From Cutibacterium modestum (GTDB taxonomy: Bacteria; Actinomycetota; Actinomycetes; Propionibacteriales; Propionibacteriaceae): DNA of 64,000 nucleotides. The notes beneath the pieces were generated by a model that searched no databases, was not told where the DNA came from, and was given only the letters and a program-made list of their open reading frames with translations. Shown one piece after another: positions 12,212-38,379 of the stretch; the first letter of the stretch is position 1, and every line of letters begins with the position of its first letter. A program made the translations under genes and the position numbers. Where the stretch lies: NCBI RefSeq assembly GCF_008326345.1, contig NZ_BJEN01000001.1:496001-560000 (forward strand), given 5' to 3'.

Positions 12212-12964
12212 ATGAGAGAACAATTCACAGCTTCCGTTACGTCGACATCCCAAGTTCTCAACCTCGTCGGGCTGCATCACCGGTTCAGGTCAGGAGCCGA
12301 GGTCCTCAAAGGTATCGATCTCGATTTCACACCGGCCACGACGACTGCGATCATGGGACCGTCGGGCTCTGGTAAGACGACGTTGTTGAACTGCCTGTCC
12401 GGCATGATTCGACCGAGCTCGGGGCAGGTTCTATACCGTGGCAAGGACTTGGCTCAGATGAGCTCGTCCAAGCTTGACTCACTACGCCGCAGGGCATGGG
12501 GGTTCATCTTTCAGCAGTACAACCTCATTGACGCCTTGGACGCCATCGAGAATGTGAAACTCCCGGCCCTTTTCGATGGCACCCGAATGGATGACGCGAC
12601 GGCCACCGAGTCGTTGACACGGGTTGGGTTGGCCGAGCTCGCTCACCGCTATCCTGACAAGATGTCAGGGGGTCAGCAACAGCGCGTCGCTATAGTCCGA
12701 GCCATCGCGACCCACCGAGACATCCTCTTTGCCGACGAACCGACTGGTGCGCTGGACTCGGAGTCGCGCCGCGAAGTCATGGACAATCTCGTCACACTGC
12801 CCGAGGTGGGAACCACCCTTGTCATGGTGACTCACGACCCAGTCGTAGCTTCACAAACCCAGCGAGTCATCTTCCTATACGACGGCCACATCGTCGACGA
12901 CACGACGGGGTTGAGTTCCCGAGAGATCTCGGACCGCCTAGTGCAGATGGAGGTGCACGCATGA
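12212..12964 (+). CDS. ABC transporter ATP-binding protein (LolD/BceA type)
   Basis: A 250-aa nucleotide-binding subunit with Walker A GPSGSGKTTLL (near residue 50), Q-loop FIFQQYNLI, signature MSGGQQQRVAIVRAI, Walker B DILFADEPTGALDS and H-loop MVTHD. The close match to the LolD/MacB/BceA group, whose permeases are FtsX-like, agrees with the downstream gene. Its stop overlaps the permease start by 4 bp. AGGAGG lies about 13 bp before the ATG, a long spacing. It is the first gene inside the glyS island. Substrate unknown; antimicrobial-peptide export or resistance is a common role in this group. Confidence 0.88.
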   Translation: MREQFTASVTSTSQVLNLVGLHHRFRSGAEVLKGIDLDFTPATTTAIMGPSGSGKTTLLNCLSGMIRPSSGQVLYRGKDLAQMSSSKLDSLRRRAWGFIFQQYNLIDALDAIENVKLPALFDGTRMDDATATESLTRVGLAELAHRYPDKMSGGQQQRVAIVRAIATHRDILFADEPTGALDSESRREVMDNLVTLPEVGTTLVMVTHDPVVASQTQRVIFLYDGHIVDDTTGLSSREISDRLVQMEVHA

Positions 12965-14847
12965 TCGCCACGACGCAGCTGGCTGCTCGTCTCGTGCGGC
13001 GTCACCGGGATCTGTATGTAGGCGTCATGGTGATGATCGCGCTCACCATGATCATTGGCGGGGCTGAGGTGTCATTGGCGTCTGCCTTCTCCCACCCCCA
13101 GCAAGTCCACATGCCAGAGGTGAGCGCCGATAAGGCACCCACAATCATGGTGCAGGCACGATCTGTCTTATGGCTCATGGCGTTCCTTGCAGTGGGGATC
13201 TGCGGATTCATCTTGGTGTCCACAATCACCCAAGTTGTGTCCTACCGTCAGCGTGAGTTCGCAATGATGCGGCTGGCAGGTGCGAGTCGTCGACATCTGG
13301 GCTGGCTCGTGTTCTTGGAATGTCTCATCGTCTCATTCGTCACCGGGATACCAGCGATCCTACTCGGAGCTGCGTTGGCTCCCGTGTTCTTGCGCGGGTT
13401 GCAGGCAATCGACTTCTTCGGCCCCAATCTGTCGGTGGATGTGGGCATCAGCGCCGGACCGCTGTTCACGCTGCTTGTGACGATGACCCTGTTGGCAGGA
13501 TTCGCCGGACGATCCGCACTGCGTCGTATCCCTGATCGTGAACTTGCCGGTGCTCATGACAACACCGTTTCGACGATGTCATGGTGGTCGATGACGCTAC
13601 GTCTCATCATGGGGGTGGGCGGGATCGTGGCAATCGCGCTGCTGAATCCACAGGCCTTGGGCTCCTACGGGATGTTGGCTCTGCCGTTCCTCGCAATGAT
13701 ACCGGCAGTCGCGCTGGCGCCTCTGCTCGTCCCAGCCGGGGCATGGCTGGTGGGTCATCTCGTAGGACTCGTGGCACCGGGATCCGGGCTCCTCGCGGCG
13801 AAGCGGTCCTCAAAGGATCGTCTGCGTTACGCCCGCCTGGCAACGCCGGCCATCGTGGCGGTAGGCATGGTTGGTGGCTTCATGGTGGCCAATGTGCCCG
13901 ATGAGCAGCTCCAGGCTGCCAATTTCCGCGCAGCCGTCCAGTCGCAAACCGTGGCACAGGTCACTGGTATCTCCCAGACTGATCGTGCCGCTCAGGCATG
14001 GACTGAGCACCATGGCAAGGTAGCGCGCATGGGCATCGTCAATCGTTCGAAGGGGACGGGAGAGTTTGAAAGCTTCATGTTCGCCGATCTGCCGCGCCTT
14101 GATGCATTGACGTCATTGCATGTCGTCTCAGGTGATGCAACCGCGGTGCATGGCTCCGACGTGGCTGCCGACGCTGCAAGCCACAGGGTTGGCGACACCA
14201 TTCCCATGACCGATACACGAGGACACCGATTCAGTGCACACGTCGTGGCAACCTACACCGATCCGCTTTACCAGGCTCCAATACTCGATTGGAGACAGAC
14301 AGGTAAGTTCGTCAGGGAACCCGGCAAAATGCAGACGACGATGTACCTCGATGGTCTGGACGCCTCCACAGCGCAGCGCATTGCAGCATCAACAGGTACA
14401 CATGTCACGACATACTCCAAAGCCCAGTGGATCGACCAGGCCATTGCCACCCGCAAAGCTAACTCCTATCGCAGCAACGTGGGAATTTTCGGCACGGTCT
14501 ACCTCATGTGCCTCATCTCGGTCGTGCAGATGGCCGTCAGTGGATCGATGGCGCGCCATCGCGAGTTCCACGTGCTCCGCTCTTTGGGTGTTGGCCTGCA
14601 ACGACTGCTCAACGTCGTGGGTACGGAGACCATCATCGTCCAACTAGCCGCCGGTGTACTCATCGGCTTGAGTATCACGGCGCTCGGAACCGAGTTCGCC
14701 ACGACCAACGGCACGTCTGCTGGCTCAGCAGTGGCCGAAGTTGTTCCGCTCAGTCTCACTGCATTCATGGTGATCGCCATGCTGGCACTCATTGCTCAAC
14801 TCACCAGCGTCTGGGCCATCAGCCATCGTAGTGAAAATCGCCAGTAA
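12961..14847 (+). CDS. FtsX-like ABC transporter permease
   Basis: 628-aa membrane protein, coupled to the ATPase gene. Hydrophobic segments include residues ~18-40, ~65-90 (LWLMAFLAVGICGFILVSTI), ~115-145, ~165-185, ~210-270, ~300-315, then a long soluble stretch (~315-515, probably extracytoplasmic), then three final helices. The FtsX signature VVSYRQREFAMMRLAGASRRHLGWLVFLE appears after the second helix and again as SMARHREFHVLRSLGVGLQRLLNVVGTE near the C terminus. The double-FtsX layout resembles BceB/YtrF-type exporters. No dedicated two-component system lies in the island; one sits 3.6 kb away, beyond glyS and zur. Confidence 0.85.
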   Translation: MIATTQLAARLVRRHRDLYVGVMVMIALTMIIGGAEVSLASAFSHPQQVHMPEVSADKAPTIMVQARSVLWLMAFLAVGICGFILVSTITQVVSYRQREFAMMRLAGASRRHLGWLVFLECLIVSFVTGIPAILLGAALAPVFLRGLQAIDFFGPNLSVDVGISAGPLFTLLVTMTLLAGFAGRSALRRIPDRELAGAHDNTVSTMSWWSMTLRLIMGVGGIVAIALLNPQALGSYGMLALPFLAMIPAVALAPLLVPAGAWLVGHLVGLVAPGSGLLAAKRSSKDRLRYARLATPAIVAVGMVGGFMVANVPDEQLQAANFRAAVQSQTVAQVTGISQTDRAAQAWTEHHGKVARMGIVNRSKGTGEFESFMFADLPRLDALTSLHVVSGDATAVHGSDVAADAASHRVGDTIPMTDTRGHRFSAHVVATYTDPLYQAPILDWRQTGKFVREPGKMQTTMYLDGLDASTAQRIAASTGTHVTTYSKAQWIDQAIATRKANSYRSNVGIFGTVYLMCLISVVQMAVSGSMARHREFHVLRSLGVGLQRLLNVVGTETIIVQLAAGVLIGLSITALGTEFATTNGTSAGSAVAEVVPLSLTAFMVIAMLALIAQLTSVWAISHRSENRQ

Positions 14848-15407: not shown

Positions 15408-16337
15408 TTAAGAACGTGCAGATGAAAAGCAGTATTTCCAAAAGGAGATCGCGGATGCAAAGTCACGGGTTCCATGCCCGCCATTTGAGAGATGCGGGAG
15501 CCAGACGTGTCTGTGGGAAAATATTGTCATTTTAAAAATCCAGAAAGCAACGTCAATATTTGATATCCTCGAGTCACACCCGCCAGTAGTAACGAGAATA
15601 TCAGGATAATCGATAGAGTGCGCCCCAGAGGTCGGCAGAATTGCACGAATTTTGCGGCGTGAGTATAAGCCATCTTCAGGATTACCGAACTCAATAAAGT
15701 CAGAGCGAGAAACGGGATCATAATCTCTCCGGAGAGATTGCGCAATATTAACAAACGGAGAGCAACATACGCAACCGCAGGGTCGCCAAATTCCGCGATT
15801 AACAGCACTAAGAGCGACAGCCGAGCCAGCCGAACCAGAAGATGAACCGAGCATACGAGAATCTATCCATCCAGAATCAACAAGGATTTGAGCGCATTCC
15901 TCAAGATCAGTGACAGCATTAAACTTCAAAGGAAACTGTCCACTCCTATGCCAAGCTGAGCCAAGTTCGCCTCCGCCACGTACATGAGCAAGTGCAACTA
16001 CAACTCCAGCATCAATCAGAGGGGAGAACTCGAAAGCTTCATCTGCGTCTTGCGACACGCCATAGCATCCATACACATGTAAAATACCTGAGTTTTTCCT
16101 ATTCTTGGGGAGATCTTTCCGGCGTAAGATTGTGATAGAGAGCAAAGGAACACGAGAAGAATATATTTCCTCAAAAACCACAGGATTTTTAGTTACAAAT
16201 GGCGACCAAAAATCAATAGGCACTTTAAGCAAGGAATCGACATTAACCTCAAAAATACAACCCTGTGCATCCATATTAACAACAGATATATATGCACAGC
16301 GTCGTTCAGGAACAACATCAAGAATCCGGACATAATG
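15408..16337 (-). pseudogene. 5'-truncated S9 family (prolyl oligopeptidase-like) peptidase
   Basis: The frame encodes about 310 residues equal to the last beta-propeller strand and alpha/beta-hydrolase domain of an S9 serine peptidase. RHYVRILDVVPERRCAYISV reads in frame directly after the glyS hairpin, with no start codon; a possible internal ATG is at 16274. Family marks are HVRGGGELGSAWHRSGQ, the nucleophile region SSGSAGSAVAL, an Asp in VTTGGCDSRI and the His in NGGHGTRDF, so the triad appears kept while the propeller is lost. The AT-rich codon use is foreign to the flanks. It may be a relic of a longer gene cut when the island joined glyS. Confidence 0.75.
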
Positions 16338-18423: not shown

Positions 18424-19095
18424 TCAGCGGCGGAGCCGAGGGGTAACTAAGCCCAGCTCGCACGCTCTCACCAGCACCTCAAGACGACTGCGCACTCCCA
18501 GTTTCTTTGCTAGATGGCCAAGACGCTGCTTGACTGCGGACTCACTGAGACATAGTTCATCTGCAATGGCAGCGTTCGGTAACCCTTCGGCGAGAAGTTT
18601 CAGAACGTCGTCGTCAGCATCGGACAATTCCACCCGGGTCATATCAACCTGATGGGTCCCCCCGCCAGAGCGCCGAGCTGAAAACGCAGCAACCACACCA
18701 CGGGCGATCTCAGGAGACACTGTCACCTGACCTGCCATGACGGCGCGGACTCCAGCGATGACGGCCTCCGGCTCAGATTCTTTAAGAAGGTATCCGGAAG
18801 CACCAGCAAGAATGGCCTCAACGACGATATCCCGACGAGCAAAGGTCGTCAGGGCAACAACAAGGATCGATGGATGACGCGAGACGATCATTCGGGTAGC
18901 TGTGAGACCATTCATCTCAGGCATCTTGAGGTCCATAAGGACAACGTCGGGCAGTAGCTGATCAACAAGCTCGACTGCTTCGCGACCATTAGTGGCTTGT
19001 CCGACGACCTCCATCTCTTCGACATGAGAGAAATAGCCAGCAAGGGCCTGCCTCATGATCGGATGATCGTCAGCAACCACGAGTCGAACTGACAT
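18424..19095 (-). CDS. NarL/LuxR-family response regulator
   Basis: A 223-aa two-component regulator. The receiver domain has the acidic pair VVADDHP and the phosphoacceptor Asp in LLPDVVLMDLKMPEMNG. The C-terminal LuxR helix-turn-helix is LSDADDDVLKLLAEGLPNAAIADELCLSESAVKQRLGHLAKKLGV. The ATG at 19095 follows AAGGAG. It is divergent from a small secreted peptide gene and its neighbouring histidine kinase, the likely partner. A perfect 10-bp inverted repeat lies 36-60 bp upstream and may be its own operator. Confidence 0.9.
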   Translation of the reverse strand: MSVRLVVADDHPIMRQALAGYFSHVEEMEVVGQATNGREAVELVDQLLPDVVLMDLKMPEMNGLTATRMIVSRHPSILVVALTTFARRDIVVEAILAGASGYLLKESEPEAVIAGVRAVMAGQVTVSPEIARGVVAAFSARRSGGGTHQVDMTRVELSDADDDVLKLLAEGLPNAAIADELCLSESAVKQRLGHLAKKLGVRSRLEVLVRACELGLVTPRLRR

Positions 19096-19428
19096 CACAT
19101 CTCCTTATACTCACGCTGAACGCTATCGGGCCTAGGTGAGACCTCCTCACCTAGGTAGTCGCACGGCGCCAACAACCAGTCATACAACGCCTTCGAGGCA
19201 AGGTATACGGTCAAGCCCACACTGCCTCGCATTCTCGCATGTCCGAGCAGTTCATATGACGACAGGTTAGGCACATGGCCGCAGACGACCAATCGTTTAT
19301 GGCCTAGCCGGTCGGCCGGCCAGATGAGCAGTCAGACGGTCATCACACAGTTCCTCTCAGCACGTGTCGGCCACATCCACTCATTTTTTGCTTACCCGTT
19401 GTAGATAGCCCTTCCAAGGGGATACATT
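19096..19428. promoter_or_regulatory. divergent control region of the peptide/two-component module
   Basis: 333 bp between the response regulator and the peptide gene, holding the dyad at 19131-19155 and a GGTCGGCCGGCC tract near 19310. Just upstream of the peptide is a TTGCTT / TAGATA pair with poor spacing. No convincing gene. Both promoters of the module must lie here. Confidence 0.5.
19131..19155. promoter_or_regulatory. perfect 10-bp inverted repeat upstream of the response regulator
   Basis: CCTAGGTGAG, 5-nt spacer, CTCACCTAGG. The centre is about 48 bp before the response-regulator ATG. The 25-bp dyad suits a dimeric LuxR-type regulator; a 5'-leader hairpin is the alternative. Confidence 0.6.
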
Positions 19429-19617
19429 GTGTCCATGAAGAAAATTATCACCGGCATCGTGACTGCCTTGGCGGTCAGCTCCTTCTCGATCGCTATCCCA
19501 GCCCACGCGACCACTAGCTCTAGCCCTGTTCAGAACTCCGTCAAGACACAGCCCAAGGCCCAGGTTAAGGGGATCATTGACGGATTGTGTGCCGCTTACC
19601 CTAGATGGTGCGACTGA
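19429..19617 (+). CDS. small secreted peptide precursor, candidate signalling peptide
   Basis: 62-aa precursor. A Sec signal peptide (MSMKKIITG, then a hydrophobic core to IAIPAHA) is followed by a Ser/Thr/Gln/Lys-rich spacer and a C-terminal block GIIDGLCAAYPRWCD with two cysteines six residues apart, suited to a small disulfide loop. AAGGGG lies 7 bp before the GTG at 19429; an ATG two codons later also fits. It ends 36 bp before the histidine kinase gene and is divergent from the response regulator. Position, size and processing pattern suggest an autoinducer or cue for this kinase. No family is recognised; a toxin, bacteriocin or chance secreted peptide remains possible. Confidence 0.7.
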   Translation: MSMKKIITGIVTALAVSSFSIAIPAHATTSSSPVQNSVKTQPKAQVKGIIDGLCAAYPRWCD

Positions 19618-19626
19618 TCGTTCTTT

Positions 19627-19642
19627 TCCTCCCGGCGGAGGA
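19627..19642 (+). promoter_or_regulatory. hairpin covering the histidine kinase ribosome site
   Basis: TCCTCC-CGGC-GGAGGA is a perfect 6-bp stem with a 4-nt loop. The GGAGGAG strand is the kinase ribosome-binding site (start 19654). The stem could limit kinase translation relative to the peptide, or attenuate transcription, since GTTTTG follows. Confidence 0.5.
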
Positions 19643-19653
19643 GTTTTGCGTAG

Positions 19654-20826
19654 ATGAGTGGAGGTTCTGCAACGCACGCCTTCACCGAGAGGAAGCTCCC
19701 CGCTCGCACCGTCGGTGCGACCGCTGTGGCGATCATTGTTCTCGTGTTATCCGAGATTGATGACCTGCGTATTGCGATTCAATCAGATAACCATCCAAGA
19801 ACTGTCGTCTGGCTTGTGGTGATTTATGTTTTGGGCATCGCCGCTATAGTTTGCTCAAAGTGGCCACAGGTTCAGGAGTTTTTGCTCCTTGTTTCCCTCA
19901 TCGGCAGCGCCATTATCGGTAAGTTTGCGCTGGCTATTCCTCTGCTTGCCATCCTGGCCTTTTTAGGAAGTCATCGCAGTCTCAAACGCCATAGCCCCTT
20001 GGTCATCGTTGGTACCATCGTCCTCGCGTTGGAGTGGGCATTTCACCCGAAAGGCCCAGCGTGGAGTTCAGCACTCGCGGTGGCGTTAACTGCATCGGTA
20101 GTAGGCATTGCCTTCGGTTCTGCCTTCCGTTGGCTCGACAGGCGTCGTAAACAGGCCGAGGAGCAGGTTGCTGATGCCTTGAAACAGGCGGCTTATGCCC
20201 GTGAGGAGGAGCGTCAACAGCTGGCCGCTGAGCTCCACGACGTCGTAGCCAAAGACCTCACTGTTATCACCATGTTGGCTGGCTCCATGCGCCTCAACAC
20301 CGCTGATGAGGACGTGGTCACGACCTCCAAATCAATCGAAACCACCTCGAGAACTGCCTTGGACGATCTCCAGCGTCTGCTTCTCGTGCTGCGTAACCGT
20401 GACCTCCCGCTCATCTCCTCTCCCACGCACGAGGACTCTGTCGAGGCTACGGTAGCCGTTATGGCCGCGCGACTGGAGACGCTCGGCTGGCATGTCGAAT
20501 CGTCGGTCACATGCGCTCCGATGCCGGTAAGTGTCTCCGATGCCGTCAATCGAATCCTTGACGAGTCCACTGCCAATGCCATTAAGCACAACGGGCCCGC
20601 CACAGTCAAGATCACCGTCATGGATGATGGCGATGACGTCGTAGTAGCCGTCTCCAATCCCGTCACCGATTCGGACATAGAACCTGTTCGATCAACAGGA
20701 ATGGGTATTGCTCGGCTCAAGGAACGCGTCTCCCTGCTTCGTGGCGAGATCTCTATCGGTCTGCGCAACGGTTGGTGGGTGGTTAGTGCCCGTATTCCAC
20801 GCGCAAAACCAGTTCGCGAAACCTGA
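19654..20826 (+). CDS. sensor histidine kinase (HisKA_3 type)
   Basis: 390-aa kinase. The N-terminal half (~15-165) carries five or six hydrophobic segments with short loops and no extracellular domain, a pattern used for membrane-proximal or small-peptide sensing. A charged coiled region (RRRKQAEEQVADALKQAAYAREEERQQ) leads to the H-box AAELHDVVAKDLTVITM, with the phospho-His near residue 194. The ATPase domain has N-box DESTANAIKHNG and G-box GMGIARLKERV. The partner is probably the NarL-type regulator at 18424-19095, on the other side of the peptide gene. Start supported by GGAGGAG 10 bp upstream. Confidence 0.9.
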   Translation: MSGGSATHAFTERKLPARTVGATAVAIIVLVLSEIDDLRIAIQSDNHPRTVVWLVVIYVLGIAAIVCSKWPQVQEFLLLVSLIGSAIIGKFALAIPLLAILAFLGSHRSLKRHSPLVIVGTIVLALEWAFHPKGPAWSSALAVALTASVVGIAFGSAFRWLDRRRKQAEEQVADALKQAAYAREEERQQLAAELHDVVAKDLTVITMLAGSMRLNTADEDVVTTSKSIETTSRTALDDLQRLLLVLRNRDLPLISSPTHEDSVEATVAVMAARLETLGWHVESSVTCAPMPVSVSDAVNRILDESTANAIKHNGPATVKITVMDDGDDVVVAVSNPVTDSDIEPVRSTGMGIARLKERVSLLRGEISIGLRNGWWVVSARIPRAKPVRET

Positions 20827-21814: not shown

Positions 21815-22480
21815 ATGGATTCCTTTATCGCGCTGTTCGACAGCGTCTGGTACCTGGTGCTCGTTGCTGCTGTCAGCCCCGTCATGATCCTCAACGCGAA
21901 CGCAGCAGTACACGGCCAGAAGCAGAATCACGGCTGGGCTTTCGTCTCTGGTGCCGGTTTGGTACTCGGGGCGGTCGGCGTCACGAGCTTTGGTTTGTTG
22001 GGAAACGCTGCGACCGGCTTCGCCTCGCGTCAGCTGGCGTCGCACGCCGTCGACCGTGTGCTGGGCGTCTTACTCTTCTTATTCGGGTGTTATCTGGGAT
22101 GGAAGAAATGGGGATCCCACCGCGTCCAGAAATTTCGAGGTAAGAAAATCTCAGGCCCACGGTCCGCTGGAGCTCACGGCATGTTCACCTGGGGAGCTCT
22201 TGGGATGGCTACGAACTTCACCACCATTCCGCTGTTCATCTCGTCGAGTCAGCGCATCGGGAATGCCGACCTGCCACTCATCATCAGAATTCTGACGCTC
22301 ATCATTTCCTGGTGGATCGTCCTCGTTCCGGCGTGGTTTCCCGTCGTTATTGACCGGTTGCGTCCCAATTCCTCGGGAATTTCTGGGAGAACTCGGGAAC
22401 GTATCAGTCATTGGACGAGCGTCGCCTCGATCATTGCCTGCCTCGGCTCCGGAGTCATCATCATATGGACGTCCCTGTGA
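21815..22480 (+). CDS. six-helix membrane protein, GAP/LysE-like
   Basis: About 221 aa with roughly six transmembrane segments: WYLVLVAAVSPVMILNANAAV, FVSGAGLVLGAVGVTSFGLLG, VLGVLLFLFGCYLGW, a middle segment TWGALGMATNFTTIPLFIS, IIRILTLIISWWIVLVPAW and a C-terminal helix. The early proline-containing helix and the two-part layout resemble the GAP (sulfolipid-addressing) and LysE exporter families, but I recognise no specific member. The ATG at 21815 follows AGGAGATG. Probably co-directional with uppS, about 100 bp upstream of it. Confidence 0.65.
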   Translation: MDSFIALFDSVWYLVLVAAVSPVMILNANAAVHGQKQNHGWAFVSGAGLVLGAVGVTSFGLLGNAATGFASRQLASHAVDRVLGVLLFLFGCYLGWKKWGSHRVQKFRGKKISGPRSAGAHGMFTWGALGMATNFTTIPLFISSSQRIGNADLPLIIRILTLIISWWIVLVPAWFPVVIDRLRPNSSGISGRTRERISHWTSVASIIACLGSGVIIIWTSL

Positions 22481-36257: not shown

Positions 36258-36911
36258 TCAGCTCGATTCGGATTCCCCCACATGAATGAGCCCCGACTCG
36301 TAGGCCAATACGACGAGTTGCACCCGGTCACGTAGATCACACTTGGTCAGGCAACTAGACACGTGGGTCTTGACAGTGGCCTCGGAAACAGTGAGTTCAG
36401 CGGCGATTTCGGCATTAGAGAGTCCCCGCGCTACCAATCTGGTCACCTCGATCTCTCGGGAGGTCAGATTTTCGACCCGTCGATCTAGTTTGGCGAGTCG
36501 GGAAGCTGATCTCGCTATCACCCGACGAGTGACCTCGGGAGCAAGCAGAGCATGGCCTTCGGCGACTTGTCTCAACCCCGTCACCAGCAAATCGGCCTCA
36601 GCGTTCTTAAGCATGAATCCACTGGCTCCGGCATCCAAAGCGTCAAAGAGGTAATCGTCACGGTCGAAGGTCGTAAGGATAACGATCTTGACGTCACTGA
36701 ATTCCCTGATTCGCGTGGTGGCCTCGATGCCGTCCATGACGGGCATCTGAACATCCATAAGAACGACGTCCGGAGTAGCCTGCCGCACCACGTCGATCGC
36801 CTCAACACCATTGGACGCCTCCGCGACCACCGTGATGTCAGGCTCGGCTGCAAGAATGAGACGAAATCCTTGTCGGACCAGTTTCTGGTCGTCCGCAAGC
36901 GCGATGCGCAT
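36258..36911 (-). CDS. NarL/LuxR-family response regulator
   Basis: 217-aa regulator: receiver with acidic residues in IALADDQKLVRQGF and phospho-Asp in TPDVVLMDVQMPVMDGIEA, then a LuxR domain LTSREIEVTRLVARGLSNAEIAAELTVSEATVKTHVSSCLTKC. The start codon shares one base with the stop of the upstream kinase gene (TGATG). It probably controls the ABC exporter just downstream. Its cognate kinase gene is broken in this sequence, so the regulator may be unphosphorylated or driven by another kinase. Confidence 0.92.
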   Translation of the reverse strand: MRIALADDQKLVRQGFRLILAAEPDITVVAEASNGVEAIDVVRQATPDVVLMDVQMPVMDGIEATTRIREFSDVKIVILTTFDRDDYLFDALDAGASGFMLKNAEADLLVTGLRQVAEGHALLAPEVTRRVIARSASRLAKLDRRVENLTSREIEVTRLVARGLSNAEIAAELTVSEATVKTHVSSCLTKCDLRDRVQLVVLAYESGLIHVGESESS

Positions 36912-38273
36912 CAGTCCTCCTGCGGCATATTGTTGACTTGCCAGTTCGTCGTACGGGCATCTGGAGTACCTGCTCCCGACATCCTGTGCTCTTTCACAGC
37001 TTCGCCATCCCCAGCCCGGCTGCGAATAGGGATGACGGCCCGGACTCGCCATCCACCAATCCTGCGAGGCCCGACCTCGAGGGTGCCACCTAAAGCTTCA
37101 ACTCGCTCGGACATACCGATAATTCCTACACCTGTGGAAGGCACGGAGTGGACGGGACGGCCATTGTCGGTAACCTCGACCTCGACCGAGTTCTCATCGC
37201 AGCGCCCAGATACGGTCACCTCGCTGGCGCTGGAATGGGCCTCCACATTATTGAGGGACTCCTGAACGATCCGGTAACAGGTATGCCCTTGCAATGGGCC
37301 CACTATGGAGTCATCCCCAACTCGCAGTAGTCGGACCTCGGCCCGCCGAGGGGCCGCGCAGAGACGATCCACGTCCGCCAGGCCGAGTTGGACGCCGGCT
37401 TCATCCCGGTCCCGCAGCGATCCTAGCAAGGAACGCATTTCGGCTACTGCTTCCCGGGATTCCGATTCCACCGTCGATAATGCTTCTTTCGCCAAGGTCA
37501 AATCGACGCCGAGAGCGCGACGCACCCCAGCGGCATGAATGCCGATGATCGATACATGATGAGCCACTGAATCATGCATCTCCCGAGCGATCCTCAGCCT
37601 TTCGGCGAGAACGGCTTGCTCAGCAAGCTGGTTACGCTGTCGTCGATCGTCGCCGCCTGACTCCTCAAATTGGCCAGGTCACGGGCCCACAGCCACGATA
37701 CCTGGCCGACGAGGGCCGCGCCCACCACGAAGGGATATTGACGACGACATAGGTAAGGACGAGGTAAATAATCTCGTCCCCTTTACTGTCAGGGCTGATA
37801 GCCCTCAGCCGTTCACTCAACGAGTGGCCGAAGGCCAGGACGACCGTAACCCACCCCATAATCACAACGAATACCCCAAGCATCGACCCCCAAGCAGCAC
37901 GCCGGGTTCGTGCCCAAACCATCAAGGAATAATAGGAAAAGAAGAATGCCAGGGTAGAAGCCCAATTATTGACCATGTACGGCGTCACGTAGGTGCCAAC
38001 AATCCAAATGAGAGTTACGCCAGCGGCCGACGCGATCGGCAGCCTCCGACGGAGGAAGAAAACCACGGCCAAACCAGCTACAACAATGACGTCACAGGAT
38101 CCCAAATCACCCAGATGATTCTGCACAGCGGCAATCAACACCCCCGCCGCACCAACAGCTAAAGCCACTAATACTCCGACGACCGCGTCGACAATCGGCA
38201 CCAGCCCTACAATTGGAATCCGCCAAGTCTTCCCCTCTGGCACCCGACGATGCCACATATCATCCATTGCCAT
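36911..38273 (-). pseudogene. sensor histidine kinase with two frameshifts
   Basis: The N-terminal membrane half (about residues 1-190, six hydrophobic segments such as IVDAVVGVLVALAVGAAGVL and STLAFFFSYYSLMVWA) is in one frame. A short bridge (FVVGAALVGQVSWLWARDLANL) is in a second. The kinase half (RNQLAEQAVLAERLRIAREMHDSVAHHV ... ESLNNVEAHSSASEV ... GVGIIGMSERVEALGG) is in a third. Two single-base losses, one in the CCC at about 37730 and one near 37640, explain it. The H-box, N-box and G-box are kept. The ATG at 37579 could give a free cytosolic kinase fragment, but it would lack the sensor. Confidence 0.82.
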
Positions 38274-38379
38274 GAAGGACACGACCGACTCACGCACACA
38301 TCAGAGCTTAACGATCAGCGCTAGGCGTCTCCTCCGTCATGAGGATGAGATTTGCCCGTTACCTTATGAATAGTCTCGA

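Follow-up and report, generated by a model that had tools for sequence, protein, structure and literature searches.

Background

Several described systems join a peptide signal to a histidine kinase. In the ComQXPA system of Bacillus, the ComX pheromone is paired with ComP, a kinase of the HisKA_3 type, and with ComA, a regulator of the NarL type, while the signal of the Agr/AIP systems is a cyclic thiolactone peptide. The closest described system is the pqsA-pqsB-pqsC locus of Propionibacterium (Cutibacterium) acnes, which encodes a kinase (PPA0945), a peptide (PPA0946), and a regulator (PPA0947), and which is called "likely involved in P. acnes quorum sensing" in a 2013 report (PMC3848588). 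According to the same report, which cites the Leeds thesis of Guan (2011) for the locus, the start sites were mapped with 5' RACE and RNA-seq; the pqsB mRNA is leaderless, its start site overlapping the start codon, with a second start site upstream and a possible antisense RNA (PMC3848588). Quorum sensing by pqs is put forward there as a proposal only, and no functional test of it is found among the matches listed in a search of the literature. Among the papers searched, the three locus tags occur in PMC3848588 alone, and passages on C. acnes in two reviews of quorum sensing name AI-2 and no peptide system.

The window, that is, the whole stretch of 64,000 nucleotides analysed here, carries the same three genes as the C. 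acnes locus, in the same order and with the same divergence. By sequence and position, the window locus is an ortholog of the known C. acnes pqs locus. Its genes occupy the same place as their orthologs, between fur and recO, and in all seven Cutibacterium copies, including that of the window, the peptide gene stands directly before the kinase gene with the regulator gene divergent. The original prediction had presented the circuit as possibly undescribed, a claim that has to be withdrawn because the orthologous locus of C. acnes has already been proposed as a quorum-sensing peptide system in the 2013 report (PMC3848588). One of the genomes compared, G001, is taken as C. acnes because both published primers match it at the pqs locus with no mismatch (21/21 and 20/20). 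Relative to this copy, the window peptide is 73% identical and the kinase membrane half 47%, and the regulator, intact in the window, is frame-broken in G001, where the receiver and DNA-binding parts lie in different frames (L094). In our main reading, which is given a probability of roughly 0.7, the window locus would be a pqs peptide-signalling module whose peptide is sensed by the neighbouring kinase.

Layout of the locus and start of the peptide gene

The features of the three-gene module (18424-20826), which is flanked by a Fur-family gene on one side and recO on the other, are collected in Table 1. Open reading frames and Pfam matches bear out the arrangement first described from the letters alone: a regulator, a small ORF, and a kinase, with the regulator divergent and 36 bp between the other two. 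The regulator ORF (18424-19098, - strand), which holds receiver and GerE/LuxR domains, reaches as far as GTG 19098. The small ORF ends in ...GIIDGLCAAYPRWCD, and its stop at 19617 lies 36 bp ahead of the kinase ATG.

Table 1. Features of the pqs module, in window coordinates
Feature	Position	Strand	Remarks
LuxR/NarL-type response regulator (pqsC ortholog)	18424..19095	-	Pfam Response_reg and GerE; conserved start ATG 19095
Putative promoter	19399..19428	+	-35 TTGTAG (19399-19404), 18-bp spacer, -10 TACATT (19423-19428); would give a leaderless peptide mRNA; boxes assigned by the authors
Peptide precursor, 60 aa (pqsB ortholog)	19435..19617	+	Sec-like signal, predicted A-H-A cleavage site, 35-residue mature part, C-terminal C-x3-P-x2-C core
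Putative signal core LCAAYPRWCD, precursor residues 51-60	19585..19614	+	C52, P56, and C59 invariant in 13/13
Gap, 36 bp	19618..19653	+	RNA hairpin possible over kinase GGAGG
Sensor histidine kinase, 390 aa (pqsA ortholog)	19654..20826	+	Six predicted membrane helices, DDL closing helix 1, HisKA_3 and HATPase

The precursor had been predicted to be 62 aa long. The small ORF and its C-terminus are as described, but the length is probably not, since the most likely start, judged from the sequence, is ATG 19435, which would give 60 aa. This ATG fits better than GTG 19429, the start of the 62-aa form, because the promoter-like block stops 6 bp before it and because the published pqsB mRNA is leaderless; GTG 19429 was ranked second, as the putative -10 box stops directly ahead of it. 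By eye, the promoter-like block is seen upstream of all seven Cutibacterium copies, the -10 sequence being exactly TACATT in five of them and the gap to the ATG being 6 bp in six copies and 7 bp in one. The leaderless peptide mRNA that the 2013 report describes for C. acnes fits this block kept in Cutibacterium (PMC3848588). Downstream, an RNA fold over the 36-bp gap and the kinase start codon is predicted at -12.7 kcal/mol. It includes a hairpin (19626-19643) over the likely ribosome-binding site of the kinase, which is weak evidence because its form is not kept in relatives.

A lipoprotein reading of the precursor was rejected (LPAM_1, 14.4 bits with a cut-off of 20), as were the WGxxGxxG, Phr, and AimP families, for which every score fell under the cut-off, and the best match in a PHROGs search had an E value of only 0.08.

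Elsewhere in the window, an ORF of 288 aa (15408-16274) that carries a prolyl oligopeptidase domain (Peptidase_S9) adjoins an ABC transporter with an FtsX permease (12212-14847).

Distribution of the module

Among nine Cutibacterium genomes, seven encode the peptide (E 1.5e-13 to 5.3e-36), and the other two give E values of 0.2 or worse. The same seven carry orthologs of the kinase (at least 69% identity) and of the regulator, the latter being 86-92% identical to that of the window in the six others. In the remaining genomes, G004 and G008, all three pqs orthologs are missing, and only distant paralogs occur: kinases at E 1e-12 or worse in G004 and 3.4e-15 or worse in G008, and regulators at 41-42% identity. 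The small gene has therefore come through the comparison on which the original prediction could have failed; no genome was seen that has orthologs of the kinase and regulator but lacks the peptide gene.

The two genomes without the module are more distant relatives, since their RecO proteins are 75-79% identical to that of the window, whereas RecO and UppS are at least 91% identical among the seven. In G008, recO and the Fur-family gene that comes next are 46 bp apart, so the pqs module is absent from its place. However, this locus also lacks the gene for a 221-aa membrane protein on the far side of recO; the difference thus goes beyond the three genes, and the empty site is ambiguous as evidence that they form a unit. 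In G004, inspection of the 1.5 kb after recO showed no Fur gene. The 221-aa ORF (window 21815-22480) is membrane-protein-like, has no Pfam family, and lies between recO and uppS in all seven module-bearing Cutibacterium loci; no counterpart was found in the loci retrieved from G008, G004, and a second genus. It is possible that it represents a further component or just a linked gene.

Beyond Cutibacterium, kinase relatives at 31-33% identity were found, three of them in this second genus (G011 and G012) and one in G109 (33%). Directly upstream of each of the three lies a 60- or 61-aa peptide with a signal-like N-terminus, ending in CYWLPNYCR or CFWLPNYCR; upstream of the G109 kinase there is no such peptide. 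When a profile of the kinase membrane half was run against a sample of 391 genomes of the order, it matched 12 genomes, namely the seven of Cutibacterium and all five of the second genus, with 13 kinases in total. The three further second-genus kinases have upstream peptides ending in CFWLPAYCR, CYFFPRIC, and CYFFPRICR. A peptide thus stands directly upstream of all 13 kinases; for three of these, the kinase was found first and the peptide was sought afterwards. Because of the second-genus copies, a pqs-type module is not the quirk of one genus.

A profile built from the Cutibacterium peptides alone gave seven strong matches in 198 genomes of the family, the rest of the matches listed having E values of 2.7e-4 or worse. 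The peptides of the second genus were not picked up in this way; they were recognised in the neighbourhoods of the kinases. A profile of all 13 peptides, run against 394 genomes of the class, matched 46 genomes at E 0.002, two of Cutibacterium and 44 others. The matches in these 44, mostly in long frames, all end at or before model position 52, ahead of the end of the loop, and they were set aside as matches to the signal sequence. The corresponding 13-row profile of the kinase membrane half, in the same number of class genomes, matched two of Cutibacterium and, weakly and in part, five others (E 4.2e-5 to 7e-4). No like peptide was found at these five loci in a scan of ORF ends for C-x3-P-x2-C. 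Over 126 loci (518,033 bases, overlapping), that scan returned the 13 peptides and five other ORFs (L032, L071, L072, L092, and L125), which were judged unrelated. It should be noted that in most searches, full scoring was given to the best candidates of a first look (up to 9, 16, or 32 per genome where the lists were large) and that the order and class sets are samples; absence elsewhere is consequently not proved.

The kinase and its variable membrane half

The kinase scores over the cut-off for HisKA_3 in Pfam and just under the gathering score for HATPase_c. Its membrane half, for which five or six helices had been predicted, has six with short connections in an AlphaFold model whose quality is modest (mean pLDDT 69, pTM 0.36). 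Two aspartates, D36 and D37, are invariant in 13/13 kinases and close the first membrane helix near the first outer loop; the motif is DDL in 12 and DDI in one. The C-terminal end of one kinase, in G009 (L119), departs from those of its relatives, possibly through a frame break.

Within Cutibacterium, the two halves of the kinase differ in conservation, the membrane half being 37-74% identical (mean 51) and the catalytic half 82-92% (mean 87). In a pair of control kinases, each compared on six genomes, the mean identities are 64/86 and 88/91 (membrane/catalytic), against 48/87 and 53/87 for pqsA on the same genomes. The first control omits G001, where the frame has 252 aa, and the second omits G000, where a 222-aa frame is not a clear ortholog. 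The membrane half of the kinase is therefore unusually variable in Cutibacterium, with the catalytic half near the controls. No such contrast is seen in the second genus, where the two halves have diverged to a similar extent (52/55%, with the last 45 alignment columns of the kinase left out here and in the G011 comparison below).

A second HisKA_3 two-component system lies at window 36258-38297. Its kinase looks broken, since the membrane part (37665-38297, no Pfam match) and the catalytic part (36911-37579) are separate ORFs.

The peptide and its possible covariation with the kinase

Four residues of the peptide, G46, C52, P56, and C59 in the numbering of the window, are fixed in 13/13 peptides from two genera, and a C-x3-P-x2-C core is common to all 13. 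The mean peptide pN/pS over 21 pairs is 0.43, a value that is uncorrected and partly saturated. Together with the occurrence of the peptide in seven of nine Cutibacterium genomes, these features mark the small ORF as no mere chance reading frame. The signal and cleavage site were called from inspection and hydropathy. LCAAYPRWCD is the putative core of the released signal. A disulfide made by an enzyme is uncertain, because VKOR had no match in 9/9 Cutibacterium genomes, though DsbA-like Thioredoxin_4 proteins occur in all nine.

It had also been suggested that the loop might vary together with the membrane half of the kinase. In the seven Cutibacterium genomes, distances between mature peptides do correlate modestly with those between membrane halves (Mantel r 0.60, p 0.038, n=7, 193 of 5040 permutations; partial r 0.53, p 0.031), and the peptide does not correlate with the catalytic half (r 0.18, p 0.25). 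However, the signal sequence correlates with the membrane half just as strongly (r 0.68, p 0.021), which means that the loop does not stand out in this test; linkage or shared history may account for the correlation. Given in addition that the two halves diverge alike in the second genus, and that the two module copies of G011 (L100 and L103) have near-identical kinases (97/95%, membrane/catalytic) with peptide cores only 73% alike, the covariation is suggestive only.

A model for the circuit and its alternatives

Taken together, these results lead to a model in which the precursor, given its signal-like N-terminus, would be exported by the general Sec route, cut at A-x-A, and possibly trimmed further to yield a C-terminal peptide. 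The two cysteines would probably close a C-x6-C loop around the fixed proline. The peptide might then dock onto the kinase at its membrane half, possibly close to the conserved aspartate pair beside the first outer loop, and alter kinase activity, and the kinase, to go by adjacency and family, would control the divergent LuxR/NarL-type regulator. The small peptide is thus probably the ligand of the neighbouring kinase, and the cross-species comparison makes a role in peptide signalling more likely without proving it.

Counted in favour of the circuit are gene linkage, joint presence and absence, the peptide core, the variability of the membrane half, and the independent proposal for C. acnes in the 2013 report (PMC3848588). 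Counted against it are the weak and unspecific Mantel result, the broken regulator frame of G001, the lack of a VKOR match, the G109 kinase without a peptide, and the unclean G008 site. Of the circuit as originally predicted, the linking of peptide, kinase, and regulator is supported by co-occurrence, by the arrangement and C-x3-P-x2-C core shared across genera, and by the divergent membrane half; its novelty is what has been lost.

Other roles for the peptide have to be weighed against this one. The peptide could act on its own cell only, as an exported or membrane-held accessory subunit or as an inhibitor of the kinase, with no signal passing between cells. Linkage, co-occurrence, and kinase variability would be equally expected in that case, the peptide and kinase genes are close and on the same strand, and the neighbours tested, among which no dedicated protease or modifying enzyme was noticed, are of housekeeping types or lack a Pfam family. 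Nevertheless, such a role is considered unlikely, since the A-x-A that follows the hydrophobic stretch in 13/13 peptides suggests release, and tails of 0 to 9 residues beyond the second cysteine would be odd for a fixed subunit.

Alternatively, the peptide might be antimicrobial or directed at the host, with a two-component system that regulates or monitors its production. Small exported peptides with two cysteines can be bacteriocins, and the mature peptide varies fast among species. However, the neighbours tested (a class II tRNA synthetase, fur, recO, uppS, and a gene of the isopropylmalate-synthase type) include no modification or bacteriocin gene, a negative that is qualified by the nearby membrane protein of no Pfam family, and the unusually strong divergence in the membrane half of the kinase would not be expected from an effector role; this explanation is accordingly held to be quite improbable. 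Least credible is a kinase that senses the state of the membrane like DesK beside a peptide gene with no functional link to it, for although the nearest solved sequences are DesK catalytic cores and the predicted outer loops are short, peptide and kinase are jointly present in 13/13 cases in two genera and jointly absent in two genomes, and the peptide core is conserved.

Comparison with other peptide systems

The module, read as a peptide-signalling circuit, resembles ComQXPA in that a peptide, a multi-pass HisKA_3 kinase, and a LuxR/NarL-type regulator are encoded together, but it differs in the signal-like N-terminus, which the ComQXPA precursor lacks, in the two cysteines and the divergent regulator, and in having no ComQ-like partner, whereas ComQXPA has a prenyl transferase gene adjacent. 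No prenyl transferase of the ComQ type was seen on inspection between fur and recO in the window, and uppS was set aside as such a partner, as it adjoins recO in G008 too, where there is no module. With Agr, a possible parallel is a cyclic peptide sensed by a multi-pass kinase. Here, however, the kinase is of the HisKA_3 plus HATPase_c kind, there are two cysteines rather than one, and the N-terminus is signal-like with an A-x-A; none of the neighbour genes tested by Pfam matched the AgrB family, all having other families or none. Likewise, inspection found no double-glycine leader of the ComC/BlpC type in 13/13 peptides, which have A-x-A instead.

These comparisons allow the tentative suggestion, which we hold as possible but somewhat doubtful, that the pqs modules form a distinct actinobacterial pheromone family. 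In such a family, the peptide would leave through Sec with no exporter or modifying enzyme of its own, and its C-x3-P-x2-C loop would be recognised by the membrane half of a HisKA_3 kinase with six helices and a conserved DD by the first outer loop. The signal would have split into species-specific types within Cutibacterium, and a C. acnes-like genome (at least one), keeping signal and receptor with a frame-broken regulator, could send a signal to which it can no longer respond in the ordinary manner. If pqs is a working peptide pheromone, the Cutibacterium species of the skin would own a species-specific peptide language, for which the present comparison supplies defined peptides together with their conserved core and a region of the receptor. 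What is added to the published pqs locus is a family that crosses genera, with a conserved core and with genes that are present or absent jointly, and a receptor half that diverges to an unusual degree in Cutibacterium.
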